DNA from: a bacterium
GTDB taxonomy: Bacteria > JAMCPX01
Length of the DNA: 16,429 nt
Reading direction: 5' to 3'
Assembly (NCBI GenBank): GCA_021789095.1
Contig: JAJYJX010000036.1
Span: 1 to 16,429, forward strand
Shown: in pieces, positions 3,737-11,788 of the stretch
Layout of the letters: the number at the start of each line of letters is the position of its first letter
Numbering within the stretch: the stretch's first letter is position 1
Translations under genes and position numbers: made by a program
The notes under the pieces: model-generated
The model's input: the letters and a program-made list of their open reading frames with translations, nothing else
The model's database searches: none
Told to the model about the DNA's origin: nothing

Positions 3737-3796
3737 TAACTCAAAAAATGCATTTAAAAATAAGGAGCAAACTTTCTTATTGCATTTTTTGAGTTA
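3737..3796. repeat. 60-base palindromic element with perfect 16-base arms
   Basis: The arms TAACTCAAAAAATGCA (3737-3752) and TGCATTTTTTGAGTTA (3781-3796) are exact reverse complements around a 28-base centre. Inside the centre, TAAG (3761-3764) can also pair with CTTA (3776-3779). It starts 5 bases after the hemD stop. The stem is A+T-rich and has no T-run beyond the arm, so it is not a classic intrinsic terminator, although it could block transcript ends from either side. Its right half recurs at 7456-7488, so it belongs to a repeat family and is not just a local hairpin. Confidence 0.85.
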
Positions 3797-3841: not shown

Positions 3842-5002
3842 ATGCACGTGATATTGTATACAGGCAAAGGGGGAGTCGGTAAGACCACGGTATCAGCAGC
3901 CACTGCACTCAGGGCTGCTGAACTGGGGTATAAGACGATCGTGTTAAGCACCGACCCGGCCCACAGTCTTTCAGATGCATTTGCCGTGCAGATAGGCGGC
4001 GAAGCGCAGAAACTGAGAAATGATCTCTACGGCCAGGAGATCGATGTGCGCAAGGAGATAACCGAGAACTGGGGCAAAATAGAATCCTACGTAAAAGTAC
4101 TGCTTGAAAGCCAGGGGCTTGATGAGCTTATGGCAGAGGAACTTGCAACGCTCCCCGGCATGGACGAACTGTTCAGTCTGCTTAAACTGCTTGAGTTTAA
4201 GAAGACCAATAATTATGATGTCGTTGTCATAGATTGTGCCCCAACAGCCAGTACGATAAGACTTCTGAGCTTTCCCGAGATATTCCAGTGGTACATGGAT
4301 AAGTTTTTCAACATTGGCAGGAAGATAGCAAAGATTGTAAGGCCTGCTGCTGAAAAACTTACCAGGATACCTTTCCCGAAGGACGAGGTTTACGGCTCAA
4401 TCGAACAACTCTATACGAGGATGATCAAGATCAAGGAATTGCTCATGGACAACAATGTTACGACCATACGGCTTGTTATCAACCCGGAAAAGATGGTTAT
4501 CAGTGAGTCCCAGCGTGCATACACCTACCTGAACATGTTCGGTTTTACCGTAGATGCTCTTATAGTGAACAAGGTCTATCCGCAGGAAATAGACAATTCA
4601 TACCTTTCCAACTGGCTTGAAATACAGGACAAGCATATGAAGCATATAGCAAGGGTCTTCCATGGTACGCCTATTTTCAAGTCAATCCTGTATGACAGGG
4701 AGATGGTCGGCATGCCTGCCCTGTCAAAGTTTGCGGAGGCACTGTTCGGAAAAGATGATCCTGCAAAATGTTTCAGTCAGGAGTCACCGGTCAGAATAAA
4801 CAAGAAGGGCGATAATTTTACCCTTATGATAAAACTGCCGGGCGTGAAAAAAGAGGAGATCGGATTGCTTACCAGCGGCGACGAACTTATAATAAAGGTA
4901 CAGAACTTTCAGAGAAACCTTACGCTGCCAAGGGCGCTGCAGACGCGTAAGATAAAAGAGGCAACAACAGAAGGTAGCTGGCTGAAGGTAATTTTTGTAT
5001 GA
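3842..5002 (+). CDS. ArsA/Get3-like ATPase with C-terminal alpha-crystallin (ArsA_HSP20) domain
   Basis: This is a cytosolic deviant-Walker ATPase of the ArsA/TRC40/Get3 family, 386 residues, with one ATPase domain. GKGGVGKT is at residues 8-15, the switch I-like STDPAHS at 36-42, and the switch II-like DCAPT at 131-135 followed by STIRLLSFPE. An INPEKM...SQRAYTYL region and IVNKVYP (around 241-247) match the ArsA core. From about residue 315 to the end there is a small beta domain (KLPGVKKEEI, LIIKVQNFQRNLTLP, WLKVIFV) like the HSP20/alpha-crystallin fold appended to such ATPases in the Get3d group of cyanobacteria and plants. No Get3-type CxxC zinc pair is seen. Arsenite pumping is therefore unlikely, and no arsB or arsR lies nearby; a role in binding or targeting proteins is more plausible. 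The P-loop so close to the N-terminus fixes this ATG as start. It overlaps the next gene by 4 bases. Confidence 0.88.
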   Translation: MHVILYTGKGGVGKTTVSAATALRAAELGYKTIVLSTDPAHSLSDAFAVQIGGEAQKLRNDLYGQEIDVRKEITENWGKIESYVKVLLESQGLDELMAEELATLPGMDELFSLLKLLEFKKTNNYDVVVIDCAPTASTIRLLSFPEIFQWYMDKFFNIGRKIAKIVRPAAEKLTRIPFPKDEVYGSIEQLYTRMIKIKELLMDNNVTTIRLVINPEKMVISESQRAYTYLNMFGFTVDALIVNKVYPQEIDNSYLSNWLEIQDKHMKHIARVFHGTPIFKSILYDREMVGMPALSKFAEALFGKDDPAKCFSQESPVRINKKGDNFTLMIKLPGVKKEEIGLLTSGDELIIKVQNFQRNLTLPRALQTRKIKEATTEGSWLKVIFV

Positions 5003-5439
5003 GGACCAAAAAGACCGGGGGCACGTTAAATCCCGAAGCGGTAAAATCCCTGAAATTGGCCAAACAGCATTTTTTGACAGCCAACAGGGAGGATATCCTT
5101 GCCCTGAACGACATTATAGAATTTATAAAACATGTGGTTGAAGGGTATAACGACGTGCCGGCTGCTGCATCGCTGGTATCGCTGCTTACGATGATGCAGT
5201 TGATATTGAATGTAATAATCAAGAAGATTATCGATCCTTTGCGTATGGGGGAAATGCCTGCCGACGCAGGGGAGATAGTATATATGATTAACGGCATGGT
5301 GGATGATGAACTGTCTAAACTGGAGAAAGGCGATCCTTCTGACCCTCGCATTCAGGTGCTCTGGGGAATAAAAGAGATCCTTTCCGGCAAAAAAAGATAT
5401 AAATCGGGCAAGAAAGTAAAAAGAATTAAGGTTGAATAG
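4999..5439 (+). CDS. Unrecognised 146-residue protein in the ArsA-PATAN-deformylase operon
   Basis: I do not recognise this family. The protein has a basic N-terminus, then a mainly helical middle (residues about 17-105) with many L, I, V and M residues in amphipathic spacing, including a run around 60-80 that could be a buried helix. It ends in a strongly basic tail (GKKRYKSGKKVKRIKVE). No signal peptide, cysteine or known motif is visible. Its ATG overlaps the ArsA-like stop as ATGA, with GAAGG about 10 bases upstream, so it is surely co-translated with the ATPase. The basic tail suggests contact with nucleic acid, ribosome or acidic protein surfaces, but that is inference. An adaptor or partner of the ATPase is the simplest guess. 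Confidence 0.75.
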   Translation: MRTKKTGGTLNPEAVKSLKLAKQHFLTANREDILALNDIIEFIKHVVEGYNDVPAAASLVSLLTMMQLILNVIIKKIIDPLRMGEMPADAGEIVYMINGMVDDELSKLEKGDPSDPRIQVLWGIKEILSGKKRYKSGKKVKRIKVE

Positions 5440-5469
5440 ATTTAAGAGCTGTGCTTATTAATATACAAT

Positions 5470-6870
5470 ATGCTTACCAAGGGTAGATTAAAAGACATGC
5501 CATTTTTGAGACTTCTTATGAATTTCTATAACAGTAGGGTAACAGGTATACTCAGACTGACGAATGATTCCGAAGTGAAGATTATATACCTGTCCAAGGG
5601 CAAACCTATATTTGCAGCGTCCAATTCGCCGGCAGACAGAATGGGGACAATGGTATTGAGACTGAACCTCGTTACGGAGGAACAACTCGAATCAGCACTG
5701 CAGGAAGTCATGAAAACGGGAAACAGGCTTGGCACTGTGCTTGTTGACAACGGTATTATAACTGCCGAACAATTGTTTGATCTTGTTTTAAAACAGGTTT
5801 CTGAGATTATTTATTCGGTATTTGAACTCGAAGACGCCGAGTATAATTTCATTGATGAAGTACACTTCAGCAATGAAGTTATCACGCTCGACCTCAGTAT
5901 GTGGACACTCATGATGGAAGGCGTAAAAAGAAAGTTCAGCCCTGACAAGTTAAAGGAACTTATCGGCTCGCCCGGCACCATTTTGCAGAAACCTGCACAG
6001 GTCTCCGATGATTTAAGTATCATAAACGGTACCGAGGGAGAAAAGGTGTACAGCATGATCGACAATAACAAGACGTTAAATTCGGTTATATCGGGCACGG
6101 GCATGGGTGAATTAAAGACCATACAGGTACTCGGCCTGCTCAGGCTGCTCGGTTTTATATACCCGGGTTCAGAGAAGAAAGAGCCTGCTCCTACGGGGGA
6201 ACTCGGTATGGACATGGAAGAGAAACTTGAGCAGTTCCATGCAATGAACCTCTTTGAAAAACTCGGTCTTGATAAAGACGCCAACAAAGAACAAATCCTG
6301 TCAGCATTTACACTGTTATCCAAAAAGTACCATCCGGACAGGTTTGCCGACCAGCAGTATAAGGATGTAAGGCCGCTGGCACTCCAGATCTACAACCAGA
6401 TACTCGAGGCCTTCACGGTCCTTTACAAGGATTCTACGAGGGGAAAATACCTCAGGGAGATAAGCGAAGATAAGAGCACGTTGTTCCAGGAAACAGACCC
6501 TATGCTTGCAAGGCAGAACTTCGAAAAAGGAAAATCATTTGTAAATGAAAAAAAATATTCCGATGCATATAAGATGTTCAGCACGGCTATAAATAATGAT
6601 CCGAATATTTCTGAATATTACACCGCCATAGCTATCCTTGAGACCATGAATTTCCCGAACCATCCAGTAAACGTTGATGCTGCAGAAAAGGCGTTCTCAA
6701 GGGCTGTAGAGCTTAACCCGGATGAAGCGCGCAACTATTATTATCTGGGCGTTCTTTACAAGAACAAACAGGATTATAAAGCAGCAAGGGGATATTTTTT
6801 AAAAGCTCTTGTCCATAATCCAAACCACAGAGAATCGAAAAAACAGCTGGAACTGCTTGATAAGGTCTGA
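5470..6870 (+). CDS. PATAN (DUF4388) - J-domain - TPR protein
   Basis: This is a 466-residue, three-part cytosolic protein. Residues 1 to about 135 are a PATAN/DUF4388 module: LKDMPFLRLLMNFYNSRVTG, then IIYLSKGKPIFAAS, and a helical GTVLVDNGIITAEQL region. A linker follows. Residues about 260-328 are a J domain: NLFEKLGLDKDANKEQI, with the diagnostic HPD at 288-290 in KKYHPDRFA, then QILEAFTVL. Residues about 345-460 form two to three TPR-like repeats, for example YYYLGVLYKNKQDYKAARGYF. J domains stimulate Hsp70 ATPases through HPD; TPRs hold partner peptides; PATAN proteins are common in Desulfobacterota, with roles tied to signalling or motility in a few cases. No signal peptide is seen. 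It lies 30 bases after the previous gene with no clear Shine-Dalgarno, and 2 bases before def. The exact job is unknown. Confidence 0.88.
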   Translation: MLTKGRLKDMPFLRLLMNFYNSRVTGILRLTNDSEVKIIYLSKGKPIFAASNSPADRMGTMVLRLNLVTEEQLESALQEVMKTGNRLGTVLVDNGIITAEQLFDLVLKQVSEIIYSVFELEDAEYNFIDEVHFSNEVITLDLSMWTLMMEGVKRKFSPDKLKELIGSPGTILQKPAQVSDDLSIINGTEGEKVYSMIDNNKTLNSVISGTGMGELKTIQVLGLLRLLGFIYPGSEKKEPAPTGELGMDMEEKLEQFHAMNLFEKLGLDKDANKEQILSAFTLLSKKYHPDRFADQQYKDVRPLALQIYNQILEAFTVLYKDSTRGKYLREISEDKSTLFQETDPMLARQNFEKGKSFVNEKKYSDAYKMFSTAINNDPNISEYYTAIAILETMNFPNHPVNVDAAEKAFSRAVELNPDEARNYYYLGVLYKNKQDYKAARGYFLKALVHNPNHRESKKQLELLDKV

Positions 6871-6872
6871 TA

Positions 6873-7376
6873 ATGCCGGTTTACAAAATATATACCTATC
6901 CTGAAAGCATTCTGAAGCACAAGGCAAAACCGGTACACGATATAAATGATGAAATCCAGAAGCTTGTAGACGGTATGTATGAAACAATGCATTTTGCGTC
7001 CGGTGTAGGGCTTGCTGCCACACAGGTAGGGAATGAGAATGCAGTGTTTGTGGTGGATGTTCCGGCTGAAAACGAGCAAAGGTATATGTTTACCGTGATA
7101 AACCCTGTTCTGGTAGAATCAAGTGGTGAGTCTTCCAGGGAAGAAGGGTGCCTCAGCCTGCCCGGGTTCCGTGTGGACGTAAAAAGGGCAGAGAGGATTG
7201 TAATAAAGGGTTTTGACCGGAACGGTAAGGACCTGGTTATAGAGGCGCAAGGACTGCTCGCTGTTGCCATACAACACGAGATGGATCATCTGAACGGTAT
7301 TACGCTTATTGACAAGGCCTCCCTCCTGAAAAGGGAAGCGTATATCAAGTCGCTTAAAAAAGGATCCAGAGAATAA
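6873..7376 (+). CDS. def: Peptide deformylase
   Basis: This metalloenzyme removes the formyl group from the N-terminal methionine of nascent chains at the ribosome exit. The 167-residue length is typical. All three family motifs are present: GVGLAATQVG (motif 1), EEGCLSLPG (motif 2, with the metal-binding cysteine) and QHEMDHLNG (motif 3, HExDH with two metal histidines and the catalytic glutamate). The start is 2 bases after the PATAN-J-TPR stop, with AAGG about 7 bases upstream. In many bacteria def pairs with fmt (methionyl-tRNA formyltransferase); here fmt does not follow, and def instead ends an operon with an ArsA/Get3-like ATPase and a J-domain protein. It is followed by a convergent gene after 108 bases. 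Confidence 0.96.
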   Translation: MPVYKIYTYPESILKHKAKPVHDINDEIQKLVDGMYETMHFASGVGLAATQVGNENAVFVVDVPAENEQRYMFTVINPVLVESSGESSREEGCLSLPGFRVDVKRAERIVIKGFDRNGKDLVIEAQGLLAVAIQHEMDHLNGITLIDKASLLKREAYIKSLKKGSRE

Positions 7377-7455: not shown

Positions 7456-7488
7456 GAACAAACTTTCCTATTGCATTTTGGGGGTTAA
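7456..7488 (+). repeat. Direct repeat copy 2, overlapping the stop of the COG3581-like gene
   Basis: This is the second copy of the 3765-3797 repeat (core CAAACTTTCCTATTGCATTT), about 27 of 33 bases the same. Here the matching left palindrome arm is missing, so it is a half element. Its last bases include the TAA stop of the - strand gene (complement of 7485-7487). It lies 80 bases after def, in the same orientation as copy 1. Confidence 0.75.
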
Positions 7489-8855
7489 TGGAGGAACGCG
7501 TTCTTATGTTCCCTGACTCTCTTCGCCTGCACTGACATCGTTTCGAGCAGCCTGCGCTGGTTTGCAGATATGCTCGGTCCCTCGCAGTCTATTGCGGTAT
7601 ACGGCACCTCGAACTTGTTGGCCAATGATCTCAGGATAGCCTGGGAATTCATTGCAGGCTGGCAGTTGAATGAACCTACGTTTATCATGCCGTCATACAC
7701 GTTTGTTTTCAATGAGGTAACGAATCTTCCGACCGTGACAGGCGTTTCGTTGAACCCGCTTATGCTTACGTACTTATGCCCCTCGCATAGAATGTCAAGA
7801 AACGGTATATGCCTGTCGAACACAAGCCCGGACCCTTCGGCTATCTTCCTTATATTTCTCTGTATGCGGTCGATTATGGTCATGTGCATCCTCATCCTCA
7901 GGGTAGTGTAGGCCTCTTTAAGGTTGTTCTTCGGACTGAAAAAAGACCTCAGGATGGAAGAAGTTTTAAATTGTTCTTTGGGATCAGTAATGCCCCTCTT
8001 TACCCCGTATCTGATCAAGTCTTCCGATTCAAGAAACAGCACACCTTCGGCAAAATCTACAATCTTTGGTATAATACCCTCCCCGATAAAATATTCCGAT
8101 ATGGGATAGTGAACAAACATAACATTCAGACCGCCGAAAAGCAGCACCCTGGGTGTCTTTCTTATGTCCGCCTTTAATGAAATTTTCTTAAGATTTACCG
8201 CCCATTTTCTGAGGCAGGATTTTACCGCGGATCGACCATTCCTTGCAGCATCCACCACCCTGTCTGTCTCATTTTTGAATATCTCCATTGCATGCTCTTT
8301 ATCCTTCGCAAGGCACAACAGAGAAGCCTCGGCCTCATCCATTATATCCCCGGTTATGACTGCGGTCATGAGCTCCATGGCGATTGAATCACCCTTGCTT
8401 ATGTAATTATTTCTGATGCCGGGATTTGCCAGAAAAACTATATTTTCTTTTTTAAGCCTGCGGGCAAATGTGTCCCATACAATCGGCCATGCACCGTTCT
8501 GGCACGGTCCTTCCTGATCAAGGTTATAATAGAGCGAGATCTCATTGTTACCCCTGTTCTCGACAATATCGCGGTATGTTGCCCCTATCATTGAAACACA
8601 CGGCAGGCACTCCCTGCCTGAGCACAGGTTTTTTGCATACTGCAGAACCTCCTGTGTCGTTCTGCCTGTAATCCTGGTCTTCCATCCCAGCTTGTGAAAA
8701 ACATTTGTCATAAGCCTGCTGGTGTACGGGCTCGTATCTATTGCCCATACGTGGACCACACTGGGATCATCGAGACTTACCTTACGCCCGTTGCTGTCAA
8801 CGATGTATTTATAGTCTTCGGAAAACCTGGCTACCCTGAACCCGGTGTCTGTCAC
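7485..8855 (-). CDS. COG3581-like partner of a CoA-dehydratase-type activase
   Basis: This 456-residue protein resembles the C-terminal third of large 2-hydroxyacyl-CoA dehydratase activase fusions (COG3581, distantly like HgdB-type FeS subunits). Visible motifs are a cysteine cluster CSGRECLPC (C78, C83, C86), LDQEGPCQNG (C118), a middle FGGLNVMFVHYP segment, and late cysteines C398 (SFNCQP) and C424 (DCEGPS). These cysteines are likely ligands for one or more iron-sulfur clusters, but no cluster can be proven here. The start codon is GTG, overlapping the upstream TGA as GTGA, with AAAAAGGA about 10 bases before it, so it is coupled to the activase gene. The protein is cytosolic, with no signal peptide. 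The true substrate of this family is not established. Confidence 0.85.
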   Translation of the reverse strand: MTDTGFRVARFSEDYKYIVDSNGRKVSLDDPSVVHVWAIDTSPYTSRLMTNVFHKLGWKTRITGRTTQEVLQYAKNLCSGRECLPCVSMIGATYRDIVENRGNNEISLYYNLDQEGPCQNGAWPIVWDTFARRLKKENIVFLANPGIRNNYISKGDSIAMELMTAVITGDIMDEAEASLLCLAKDKEHAMEIFKNETDRVVDAARNGRSAVKSCLRKWAVNLKKISLKADIRKTPRVLLFGGLNVMFVHYPISEYFIGEGIIPKIVDFAEGVLFLESEDLIRYGVKRGITDPKEQFKTSSILRSFFSPKNNLKEAYTTLRMRMHMTIIDRIQRNIRKIAEGSGLVFDRHIPFLDILCEGHKYVSISGFNETPVTVGRFVTSLKTNVYDGMINVGSFNCQPAMNSQAILRSLANKFEVPYTAIDCEGPSISANQRRLLETMSVQAKRVREHKNAFLH

Positions 8856-11788
8856 AGCACTGCCGTCCTTTTTCCCTGTTTGGGATTTGAAATATCTGTA
8901 CCTCTCCTGTGTCTTTCTTCTATTATGTCAAGGAATGCGCCGACGCGCGTATCGAAGCCTGCGTGAGCGGTGTGTGAGTCTATCTCGAGATAACAAAAGA
9001 TGTGTCCTGCAAGCTCCTCACGAATCAGGTGATAGATGCTCGCATCGGGCCCGCATGAAAAGCACGATACAAGGCAAATATACATGTTTGGATATTTCTT
9101 CACGTAAGAGACCGCATTGAGGATCTGCTGGGTAAAGTGCCATACATTCCTTTTATGGGGGCTTTTCCCGGTGACAGGCAGCATGTCTGCAGGCACTGCA
9201 TGATACCCTCTGCTGGAGATCTTTCTGGGAAGGGCGAGGTTCGTCTCTGAATAGCATGTTACGTAAGGCCGTCCGGCGATAATGACTGTAGGTTCACGCG
9301 AGGTTTTTCTTATAACCTCCATGCCGTACTCATGGTACCTCTTCCTGAAAGCAGTATAATAGGCAAATGCTTTACCGGCAGCCCTCTCGGCATCGATCCT
9401 TTTTATGTTGAGCTTCCCGGCTAAATTGCCTATTTCCTTTACGGTGACATCGACAAGATGATCAGAAAATCCTATGTGGGGAGAAAGCAATCTTCCGGCA
9501 GTATGCTCAAAGGTATTTTTAATTATGCCCGGCATTATGACCGTGGTGGGGCACAGGTAACCGTGTGCGCTGCCGCTGCCGATCTCTCCTTCGATCATGT
9601 ACGGCAGGAGTATAAAGTCGGTATTCCTGAAGCTTAAATCGTAAACCGCTCCGTGTGCAATCTCGCACGGATAACACATGGCAGCCTTTGTCATTTCATT
9701 GCCTTTTCTGGAGAACTCCGACAGCACCGCGTTGTAGCCGAGTTCGTTTATCAGTTTTGCATAAAACGGGAAATACTCGAATGTTGTAAGCGCCATAGGC
9801 AGGCCGATCGTGCCGAGGGGGGCTTTAATCTTTTCCGGAGAGAATTCATCGAACATTATCCTTGTTCTTTCAGCAACGTAATCCGTGCCCTCTTGAACGG
9901 ATTTTCCCCTGTGCCTCCTTATTTCATATTTCGAGCAAAGCCCTCCGAACGGATACTTCCTGTCCCTGACGGATATTATCTGGACCTCGCATTTACTGTC
10001 GCACGCCGGGCATCTGAATGTATTCCTGACTTCGATGCCGCCTTTTACAAGTTCATCGAGCCTGTAGTCCTTTTCTTCGGCATGACCGTTTTTGAGCAGA
10101 TCCATGGTCATGAGTACAGTACCGACACATCCCATAAGCTCAGGGCGGGGAGGCACAATGACCTTCCTTCCTGTCCTTGCTGCCATGGCGAGCGCCACAA
10201 GGTTGTTTAATGCCACACCCCCCTGGAAAAGGATGTGGTTGCCGATTGTGCGCACGCCTACGATGCGGGATATGTAATTATCGGCAATGGAATAGACCAG
10301 GCCCGCTATCACATCATTCTGTCCTGCTCCCTGCTGCAGGGCATTGCGCAGGTCCGTATTGATGAACGCAGCGCACCTTTCTCCAAAGGCGATCGGGGAT
10401 TCGCTTTCTCCGGCCCTCCGGCTTATCTCGTAAACAGGAATGCCCATGTCAACGGAAACGGACTCTTCGAGGAAGCTTCCTGTACCTGCGGAGCAGCCCT
10501 CGTTCATGGCATAATCTATCGGTACGCCTTTCAGGAACGATATAAATTTGGAGTCCTGACCGCCGATCTCGAATACTGTGTCGACCTCGGGCACTTCCTC
10601 AGCGGCAGCCCTTGCGTGAGCAAGTATCTCATTAAAGCTGAGGCAGCTTCCGAGATATACCGAAACCATCTCCCTGCCCGAACCTGTCACAGCGGCCTGT
10701 AGTATCCGTATATAGGTATTGTCCACCTGCTTTATAATCTCCCTCAGGCATCTTTGAGTTGCGGCCACGGGGTTGCCGTGGGTGCGCAGGTAACAGCTTG
10801 CACCTATTGAACCGTCGGATATGTTGTAAAGCACTGCCTTTGTTGTTGTCGAACCAGCATCAACACCCAGTATATATGAGGCTCCTGCCGAAGGTTTCCT
10901 TACCTCATCCGTCCTTGCCCTGTAATCAAGGAGATCTGCAGACTCTTTCAAAGGCTTGAGTCTGTCAAAGGATACGTCCGATGATTTTTTTATGGTGCTG
11001 CCGGGAATGTTCATAGCGGTATCGTGCGGTACATCCCCAGCAAGAAGAGAAGCTCCGAAAGCCTCAAGGTACCGGCTTTCCTCGATAATCCTTATATCCG
11101 AATCAGGAAGTTCTTTTTTCAGGTTTTCGATGAAAGGCTTGTTAAGGACAACACCGCCGGAGATTAAGATCGTACGCTTTGACCACTGTGACAGCTCTAT
11201 CATCTTGCAAACCTTTTTTGCCAGGTCTGCAATAAGCGTTTTGGATATATCACCCGGTGTGCATTCTCCCTTGTTCAGCCTGTGCGTTGCGTCAGACTTG
11301 CAATGGACAGAGCATCTGGTTGCTAAAGGTACTATTTTACCGCTGTAGCTTGCTTTAATGCCTTCTTCCAGGTTAAATCCCATCCTTTGAAGCTGCTGAA
11401 CGATAAACTCTCCTGTACCTGCAGCGCATTTTGACGAAGATATGATGTTGCTTATCCTCCCGTCCTTGATCGTATAAACAATGAAGGTTTCTCCTCCCAG
11501 CGACAGTATTATATCAGGTTTAAGGCGGTAATGTGCCAGTACCTTTTCAAGGCACTCTGTCTCCGAACGGTATGGCAGATCAAGAAGAGCCCTTGCCGCC
11601 TGCCCGGTAACAACAATGTTAGAACCTTTACCATCGGCGTGTTTTTCCAGAATTTCCAGAACCTTTTTCCGTGGGTTGCCCTCGTGGCGGACGACCTCTG
11701 CAACCTGATGCCCGCTAACGGTCCTTCTGACCCACTTTACAGAAACGGCACCGATTTCCAGTCCTTCTAATAACTCTGTTTTGTCCAT
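8852..11788 (-). CDS. Double BadF/HgdC-type activase with DUF2229 region
   Basis: This 978-residue cytosolic protein has three parts. Residues 1 to about 255 are an ASKHA activase module with KCAAGTGEF (C121) and CSVHC (C159, C163); its first phosphate loop is weak (LEIGAVSVKWV). Residues about 304-565 are a second, canonical module: YILGVDAGSTTTKAVLYN, FEIGGQDSKF, EGCSAGTGSF (C432), ERCAAF (C472) and FQGGVALN. Residues about 590-960 are DUF2229/COG3580-like, with CPACDSKC (C593, C596, C600) plus C618, MCYPCE (C705, C708), C746 and CFSCG (C909, C912). Known HgdC/BadF activases couple ATP hydrolysis to low-potential electron transfer from a [4Fe-4S] cluster shared between two subunits. Here two activase modules on one chain could make the dimer internally. 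No hgdAB- or bcr-type dehydratase is adjacent, so the electron acceptor is unknown. It is followed by the 4-base-overlapping COG3581-like gene. Confidence 0.9.
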   Translation of the reverse strand: MDKTELLEGLEIGAVSVKWVRRTVSGHQVAEVVRHEGNPRKKVLEILEKHADGKGSNIVVTGQAARALLDLPYRSETECLEKVLAHYRLKPDIILSLGGETFIVYTIKDGRISNIISSSKCAAGTGEFIVQQLQRMGFNLEEGIKASYSGKIVPLATRCSVHCKSDATHRLNKGECTPGDISKTLIADLAKKVCKMIELSQWSKRTILISGGVVLNKPFIENLKKELPDSDIRIIEESRYLEAFGASLLAGDVPHDTAMNIPGSTIKKSSDVSFDRLKPLKESADLLDYRARTDEVRKPSAGASYILGVDAGSTTTKAVLYNISDGSIGASCYLRTHGNPVAATQRCLREIIKQVDNTYIRILQAAVTGSGREMVSVYLGSCLSFNEILAHARAAAEEVPEVDTVFEIGGQDSKFISFLKGVPIDYAMNEGCSAGTGSFLEESVSVDMGIPVYEISRRAGESESPIAFGERCAAFINTDLRNALQQGAGQNDVIAGLVYSIADNYISRIVGVRTIGNHILFQGGVALNNLVALAMAARTGRKVIVPPRPELMGCVGTVLMTMDLLKNGHAEEKDYRLDELVKGGIEVRNTFRCPACDSKCEVQIISVRDRKYPFGGLCSKYEIRRHRGKSVQEGTDYVAERTRIMFDEFSPEKIKAPLGTIGLPMALTTFEYFPFYAKLINELGYNAVLSEFSRKGNEMTKAAMCYPCEIAHGAVYDLSFRNTDFILLPYMIEGEIGSGSAHGYLCPTTVIMPGIIKNTFEHTAGRLLSPHIGFSDHLVDVTVKEIGNLAGKLNIKRIDAERAAGKAFAYYTAFRKRYHEYGMEVIRKTSREPTVIIAGRPYVTCYSETNLALPRKISSRGYHAVPADMLPVTGKSPHKRNVWHFTQQILNAVSYVKKYPNMYICLVSCFSCGPDASIYHLIREELAGHIFCYLEIDSHTAHAGFDTRVGAFLDIIEERHRRGTDISNPKQGKRTAVL

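Follow-up and report, generated by a model that had tools for sequence, protein, structure and literature searches.

A small helical protein encoded directly behind a bacterial Get3-type ATPase and its predicted docking on the crystallin-like domain of the ATPase

For Get3d, a form of the ATPase Get3 in which a C-terminal alpha-crystallin-like domain sits at the Get4 site, both the role of this domain and the partners of the protein have been described as unclear or unknown (PMC10248533). Does a bacterial Get3 with such a domain have a dedicated partner, and where would that partner bind? The question is raised by a 16,429-nucleotide contig of a 2.15-Mb metagenome assembly (JAJYJX010000036.1), which we refer to as the window. 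On its forward strand, the gene get3 (positions 3842 to 5002), encoding a Get3/ArsA-type ATPase of 386 amino acids, overlaps by 4 nucleotides the gene u146 (4999 to 5439), encoding a small, helical protein of 146 amino acids. We propose that Get3 and u146 probably work as one machine, in which the sequence-predicted docking of the u146 tail in trans on the crystallin-like domain of Get3 would make u146 a regulator or client adaptor of the ATPase.

The assignment of the ATPase to the Get3/TRC40/ArsA family is clear. It scores 322 bits against ArsA_ATPase (cut-off, 24.3) and 282.6 bits against TIGR00345 (cut-off, 135), and it keeps the switch regions and an invariant P-loop, GKGGVGKT, with the signature lysine. 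The CxxC zinc motif of cytosolic Get3 was not found in the protein, where the aligned region reads SYLSNW, or in any of the 50 aligned relatives. The initial annotation of this DNA had called the ATPase Get3d-like. The alpha-crystallin-like C terminus that this term implied is present (ArsA_HSP20, 67.5 bits; cut-off, 22.5), and the combination of a Get3 fold, such a C-terminal domain, and no CxxC motif is also that of Get3d from Arabidopsis and Nostoc (PMC10248533). Membership in Get3d proper was rejected. The protein is nearer to archaeal Get3 than to Nostoc Get3d: its alignment with the former (3zq6; E = 2e−52) spans residues 5 to 307 and takes in the C-terminal loop region, whereas that with the latter (3igf; E = 4e−19) covers residues 3 to 240 only. 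In addition, the protein scores 145.6 bits against the NosAFP model NF050088, below the cut-off of 325. It differs from Get3d in that its homology to Get3 spans the C-terminal adenine-loop (A-loop) region, which Get3d lacks, and in having a partner gene, whereas none lies behind the cyanobacterial-type loci examined. The mycobacterial proteins BagA and BagB are likewise bacterial Get3-like ATPases, but the Get3 of the window reaches only 45.4 and 59.7 bits against their models (cut-offs, 400 and 521). At locus L146 (3555 to 4721, reverse strand), a second, divergent gene for a Get3-like ATPase lies directly upstream of the gene for the Get3 with the crystallin-like domain, an arrangement that recalls the mycobacterial BagA/BagB pairs.

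The u146 protein has no Pfam, NCBIfam, or PDB-sequence match, and neither Get4, phasin, nor any other known family was matched. A fold search with its structural model gave nothing at E ≤ 0.001, the model being weak. Close homologues occur only in the family of the window, whose nine genomes are the only near relatives of the assembly. We nevertheless rejected the idea that u146 is an orphan of one lineage. Only its own family came up in plain and profile scans, but gene neighborhoods exposed distant homologues. Get3s with the same C-terminal domain were gathered from about 480 other genomes, and the open reading frame directly behind each was read. In 36 of the 50 loci placed on the Get3 tree, a small open reading frame of 63 to 163 amino acids follows get3, usually at −4 to +44 nucleotides from its stop codon. 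Altogether, the partner genes behind these ATPases fall into 19 families from at least six phyla; separate phylum searches found carriers in the phylum of the window and in those of genomes G051, G094, G064, G321, and G361, and in the phylum of G321 all seven genomes have this Get3.

Despite their different lengths, these proteins are related. The u146 family aligns with the long partners of other phyla (140 to 163 amino acids) at an hhalign probability of 97.7% (E = 2e−12, 133 columns), and the match persists after removal of the tail (E = 4e−10), with reversed-sequence controls at 1.4% or less. The long and short partners (62 to 87 amino acids) are connected at 95% through the first helix. 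On the Get3 tree, a large group has the partner in 21 of its 22 rows and another group in all 11; the partner is missing at cyanobacterial-type and several other loci. On this sequence evidence, u146 is a member of a hitherto unnamed family, whose proteins are small, predicted to be helical, and encoded behind Get3. In the literature on PATAN-DnaJ-TPR and ArsA/HSP20 operons we found no description of a Get3-partner gene pair; a survey of ArsA proteins reports links to gas-vesicle and cst genes instead (PMC2963123). A u146 profile match also occurs in genome G131 (locus L029, E = 2e−4).

Where might such a partner bind? The u146 protein is predicted to be helical, with hydrophobic helices at residues 54 to 82 and a disordered tail, KRYKSGKKVKRIKVE, at residues 132 to 146 (5392 to 5436), which closes with an IXI-like I-K-V. 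The C termini of the partners agree although their bodies vary (KVKRIKVE, RITKVEIE, TIKKVEIK, KAQKVKVE). The ending [VI]x[VI]x0-2 is found in 18 of the 19 partner families, compared with 18 of 358 other C termini encoded at the same loci (5%). The sole partner without a terminal IXI motif is that at locus L174 (genome G475), which has an internal RIPVT segment reminiscent of the Hsp27 IPV motif. In small heat shock proteins, the IXI tail binds the groove between strands beta4 and beta8 of the alpha-crystallin domain, as do the IPV motifs of BAG3 in trans (PMC6212398). The likeness extends to the V/I-x-V/I tail, to the hydrophobic positions in beta4 and beta8, and, for BAG3, to binding in trans; the difference is that here the next gene supplies the tail, as part of a helical protein of its own, and that the domain belongs to the same chain as an ATPase.

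The crystallin-like domain of Get3 (residues 317 to 385; 4790 to 4996) has seven strands in the structural model, among them beta4 (residues 340 to 345) and beta8 (371 to 377). The chain stops at beta9 with no C-terminal extension of its own, and no IXI motif of its own follows beta9 in any Get3 of the set. Get3s with and without a partner were compared column by column over the whole alignment, with no positions preselected. Nowhere in the protein is the hydrophobic difference larger than at residue 343 in beta4 (Leu in the window, codon at 4868 to 4870; often Trp elsewhere), which is hydrophobic in 32 of 36 partner-bearing but only 1 of 14 partner-less Get3s, or, counted by family, in 15 of 18 versus 0 of 12. 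Residue 371 in beta8 (Ile in the window, codon at 4952 to 4954) shows the second-largest hydrophobic difference within the domain. Residue 343 is a predicted tail contact, and residue 371 would be the second groove position. Moreover, the partner families with atypical tails (f85, f98, and f151) are exactly those whose Get3s lack both groove residues (15/0 versus 0/3), and one of them, f85, shares its phylum with f191, f261, and f262, which retain both the tail and the groove residues.

Several observations weigh against this interpretation. The strict form of the tail pattern was chosen once the data had been inspected, and the independent phylogenetic pairs for partner presence and residue 371 number three, too few to test; because of these two points, we regard the match between tail and groove as a strong correlation, not as proof. 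Partner presence requires six changes on the Get3 tree, and the shortest partners (62 to 87 amino acids), when compared with u146 alone, reach only 50 to 57%. The structural models are of limited quality, with a mean predicted local distance difference test (pLDDT) score of 62 for u146 and of 47 for Get3, the latter being usable in the crystallin-like domain only. Finally, because the crystallin-like domain packs against Get3 in Get3d structures, the groove may not be free.

A different reading of the same pairing is that u146 is the dedicated client of Get3, an aggregation-prone, amphipathic helical protein whose tail acts as a recognition tag. The hydrophobic helices of u146 and the strict gene pairing are in line with this idea, as is the company that the pair keeps in two other phyla, where it lies beside surface-coating helical proteins, namely, PHB_acc_N (PhaR-like) and phasin-like proteins (L090, 6523 to 7572; L146, 853 to 2141). 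We consider a client role unlikely, given that the tail and the gene position are kept while the body ranges between about 60 and 160 amino acids, a pattern that fits an adaptor better. The same neighbors give a hint that storage-granule or lipid surfaces are a setting of the Get3-partner pair. A cluster of epimerase, ParA-like ATPase, and acyltransferase genes also recurs next to the pair in two families (L090, 3764 to 6539, and L142, 1072 to 4263, by Pfam; L143, 5537 to 8590, by reading). Neighbors in other genomes were annotated from their translations, plus Pfam where cited.

Under the adaptor interpretation, Get3 would be, like its family elsewhere, a dimeric, nucleotide-switched carrier of hydrophobic helical clients, whose crystallin-like domain would offer an outer beta4-beta8 groove that Get3 itself, lacking a tail, would leave empty. 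The u146 protein, encoded in the overlapping frame, would place its disordered V/I-x-V/I tail into this groove in trans, much as small heat shock proteins do with their IXI tail and BAG3 with its IPV motifs. Because the crystallin-like domain of Get3d sits on the Get4 site (PMC10248533), the tether would hold the helical body of u146 beside the nucleotide and client sites of Get3, where it may regulate the ATPase or present clients in a Get4-like role. The arrangement would resemble that of Get4/Get5 and Sgt2 in the eukaryotic GET pathway in having a helical partner beside the nucleotide site of Get3 and a TPR protein encoded nearby in the operon. It would differ in that u146 has no detectable homology to solved structures and would bind through the crystallin-like domain, and in that the TPR protein, unlike Sgt2, is fused to PATAN and J domains.

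That TPR protein is encoded by the third of four closely spaced genes, all on the forward strand. Behind u146 lie patanJ (5470 to 6870), encoding a PATAN (DUF4388)/MshEN, J-domain, and TPR protein of 466 amino acids, and pdf (6873 to 7376), encoding a peptide deformylase of 167 amino acids. The initial annotation had listed four genes with gaps of −4, +30, and +2 nucleotides, and the coordinates of the open reading frames bear this out; its domain calls for get3, patanJ, and pdf, and its description of the 146-residue protein as unknown, likewise hold against Pfam and NCBIfam. Upstream, in the interval between hemD and get3, an AT-rich hairpin (3737 to 3796, forward strand; 24-nucleotide arms, 88% complementary; dG −27.9, z −3.9) is a likely boundary of the hem unit, consistent with the get3 cassette being a separate predicted unit. 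The cassette is flanked by two copies of a 29-bp repeat, CAAACTTTCNTATTGCATTTTNNGRGTTA, one on either side (3768 to 3796 and 7459 to 7487); the first copy forms the 3′ arm of the hairpin, and among the fetched loci the repeat was seen in this window only. Two overlapping reverse-strand genes (7485 to 11788), the larger being acyl-CoA dehydratase activase-like (TIGR00241), separate pdf from hemL in the window and are missing from that place in relatives of genus g2.

The order get3-u146-patanJ-pdf is identical, with nearly identical gaps, in every relative whose contig covers the region (genera g1 to g4), while the surroundings take three different forms. Genes hemA, hemC, and hemD lie upstream and hemL downstream in g1 and g2; in g3, the flanking genes resemble those for a transporter-binding protein and a kinase, and in g4 they are ispG-like and fmt-like (names other than hem come from reading translations). 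Because the block is retained while its neighbors change, its linkage is not due to chance, and therefore we infer selection for it. The recurrence across four genera in different contexts also settles the concern raised with the initial annotation that the four genes might be neighbors in this genome only.

Do all four products then act together? The initial annotation had proposed that they do, with the J-TPR protein loading nascent, deformylated clients onto Get3 and u146 serving as a ribosome adaptor. The retention of the four genes across genera with differing flanks agrees with such a model, and so do the adjacency of patanJ and pdf, one base apart, in a genome of another phylum (G051, on contig L089, which lacks Get3) and an fmt-like gene after pdf in genome G003. 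The details are difficult to reconcile with it. The J domain of patanJ (residues 261 to 327; 6250 to 6450; DnaJ, 32 bits; cut-off, 27.8) has its HPD motif in the window and in g1 and g2, but the motif is NPD in g3 and RPD in g4, and it is lost from both orthologues in another phylum (G051 and G196). With HPD degenerate or lost in orthologues, DnaK stimulation of the canonical kind is probably not a conserved function of patanJ, and the proposed client hand-off looks weak. A ribosome adaptor inferred from basicity was rejected on comparison of charges: the basic character of u146 is limited to its tail, KKRYKSGKKVKRIKVE, with 15 K/R versus 18 D/E in its core (residues 1 to 130), and the isoelectric points of its homologues range from 4.9 to 9.9. 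What remains of the adaptor role fits an adaptor of the ATPase, whose site would be the crystallin-like domain and not the ribosome. Since, in addition, patanJ and pdf do not adjoin get3 and u146 elsewhere, we find the full model quite improbable.

It is considerably more plausible, if still somewhat short of an even chance, that only Get3 and u146 interact, and that patanJ and pdf are co-transcribed with them for reasons of expression, patanJ being a cyclic di-GMP (c-di-GMP)-type signaling scaffold in its own right. The patanJ product has a DUF4388/PATAN match of 76 bits in addition to its J and TPR domains, and a region at residues 57 to 106 (5638 to 5787) passes the curated MshEN c-di-GMP receptor model (NF053729, 48.1 bits; cut-off, 38), from which c-di-GMP binding is predicted only. 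On the strength of this motif, patanJ may be a signal-responsive scaffold, and each genome encodes several PATAN paralogues. The deformylase has all three motifs conserved (GVGLAATQ, EGCLS, and QHEMDHL), with 172 bits against Pep_deformylase and 168.5 bits against TIGR00079 (cut-off, 103.95). Outside the lineage of the window, only the pair of get3 and u146 recurs widely, without patanJ and pdf, which occur together once more, away from get3, so one broad module of four parts, as had first been supposed, is not supported. The patanJ-pdf adjacency is a second linkage, narrower than that of get3 and u146, and because it is found without Get3, the cassette looks like a broad and a narrow pair joined. 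Against a purely incidental association stands the fact that, in this lineage, the block has stayed intact in all three of its rearranged contexts. The predicted co-transcription with patanJ and pdf may there link the loading of clients to the processing of nascent chains. A co-translational setting is hinted at solely by the link of the deformylase to nascent chains.

More broadly, we see a nearly even chance that, outside cyanobacteria and plants, bacteria harbor a widespread Get3 pathway in which a tailless crystallin-like domain and a separate, IXI-docking helical co-chaperone replace Get4/5. The partner family is conserved in at least six phyla, and its docking site is predicted down to two residues. 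Both points bear on the two questions posed for Get3d, namely, its partners and the role of its crystallin-like domain (PMC10248533), and they suggest, in the u146 family, a bacterial equivalent to the factors driving the GET pathway of eukaryotes. If true, this would explain the joining of an ATP-driven carrier with a domain of the small-heat-shock type and give a picture of a GET system in its minimal form.

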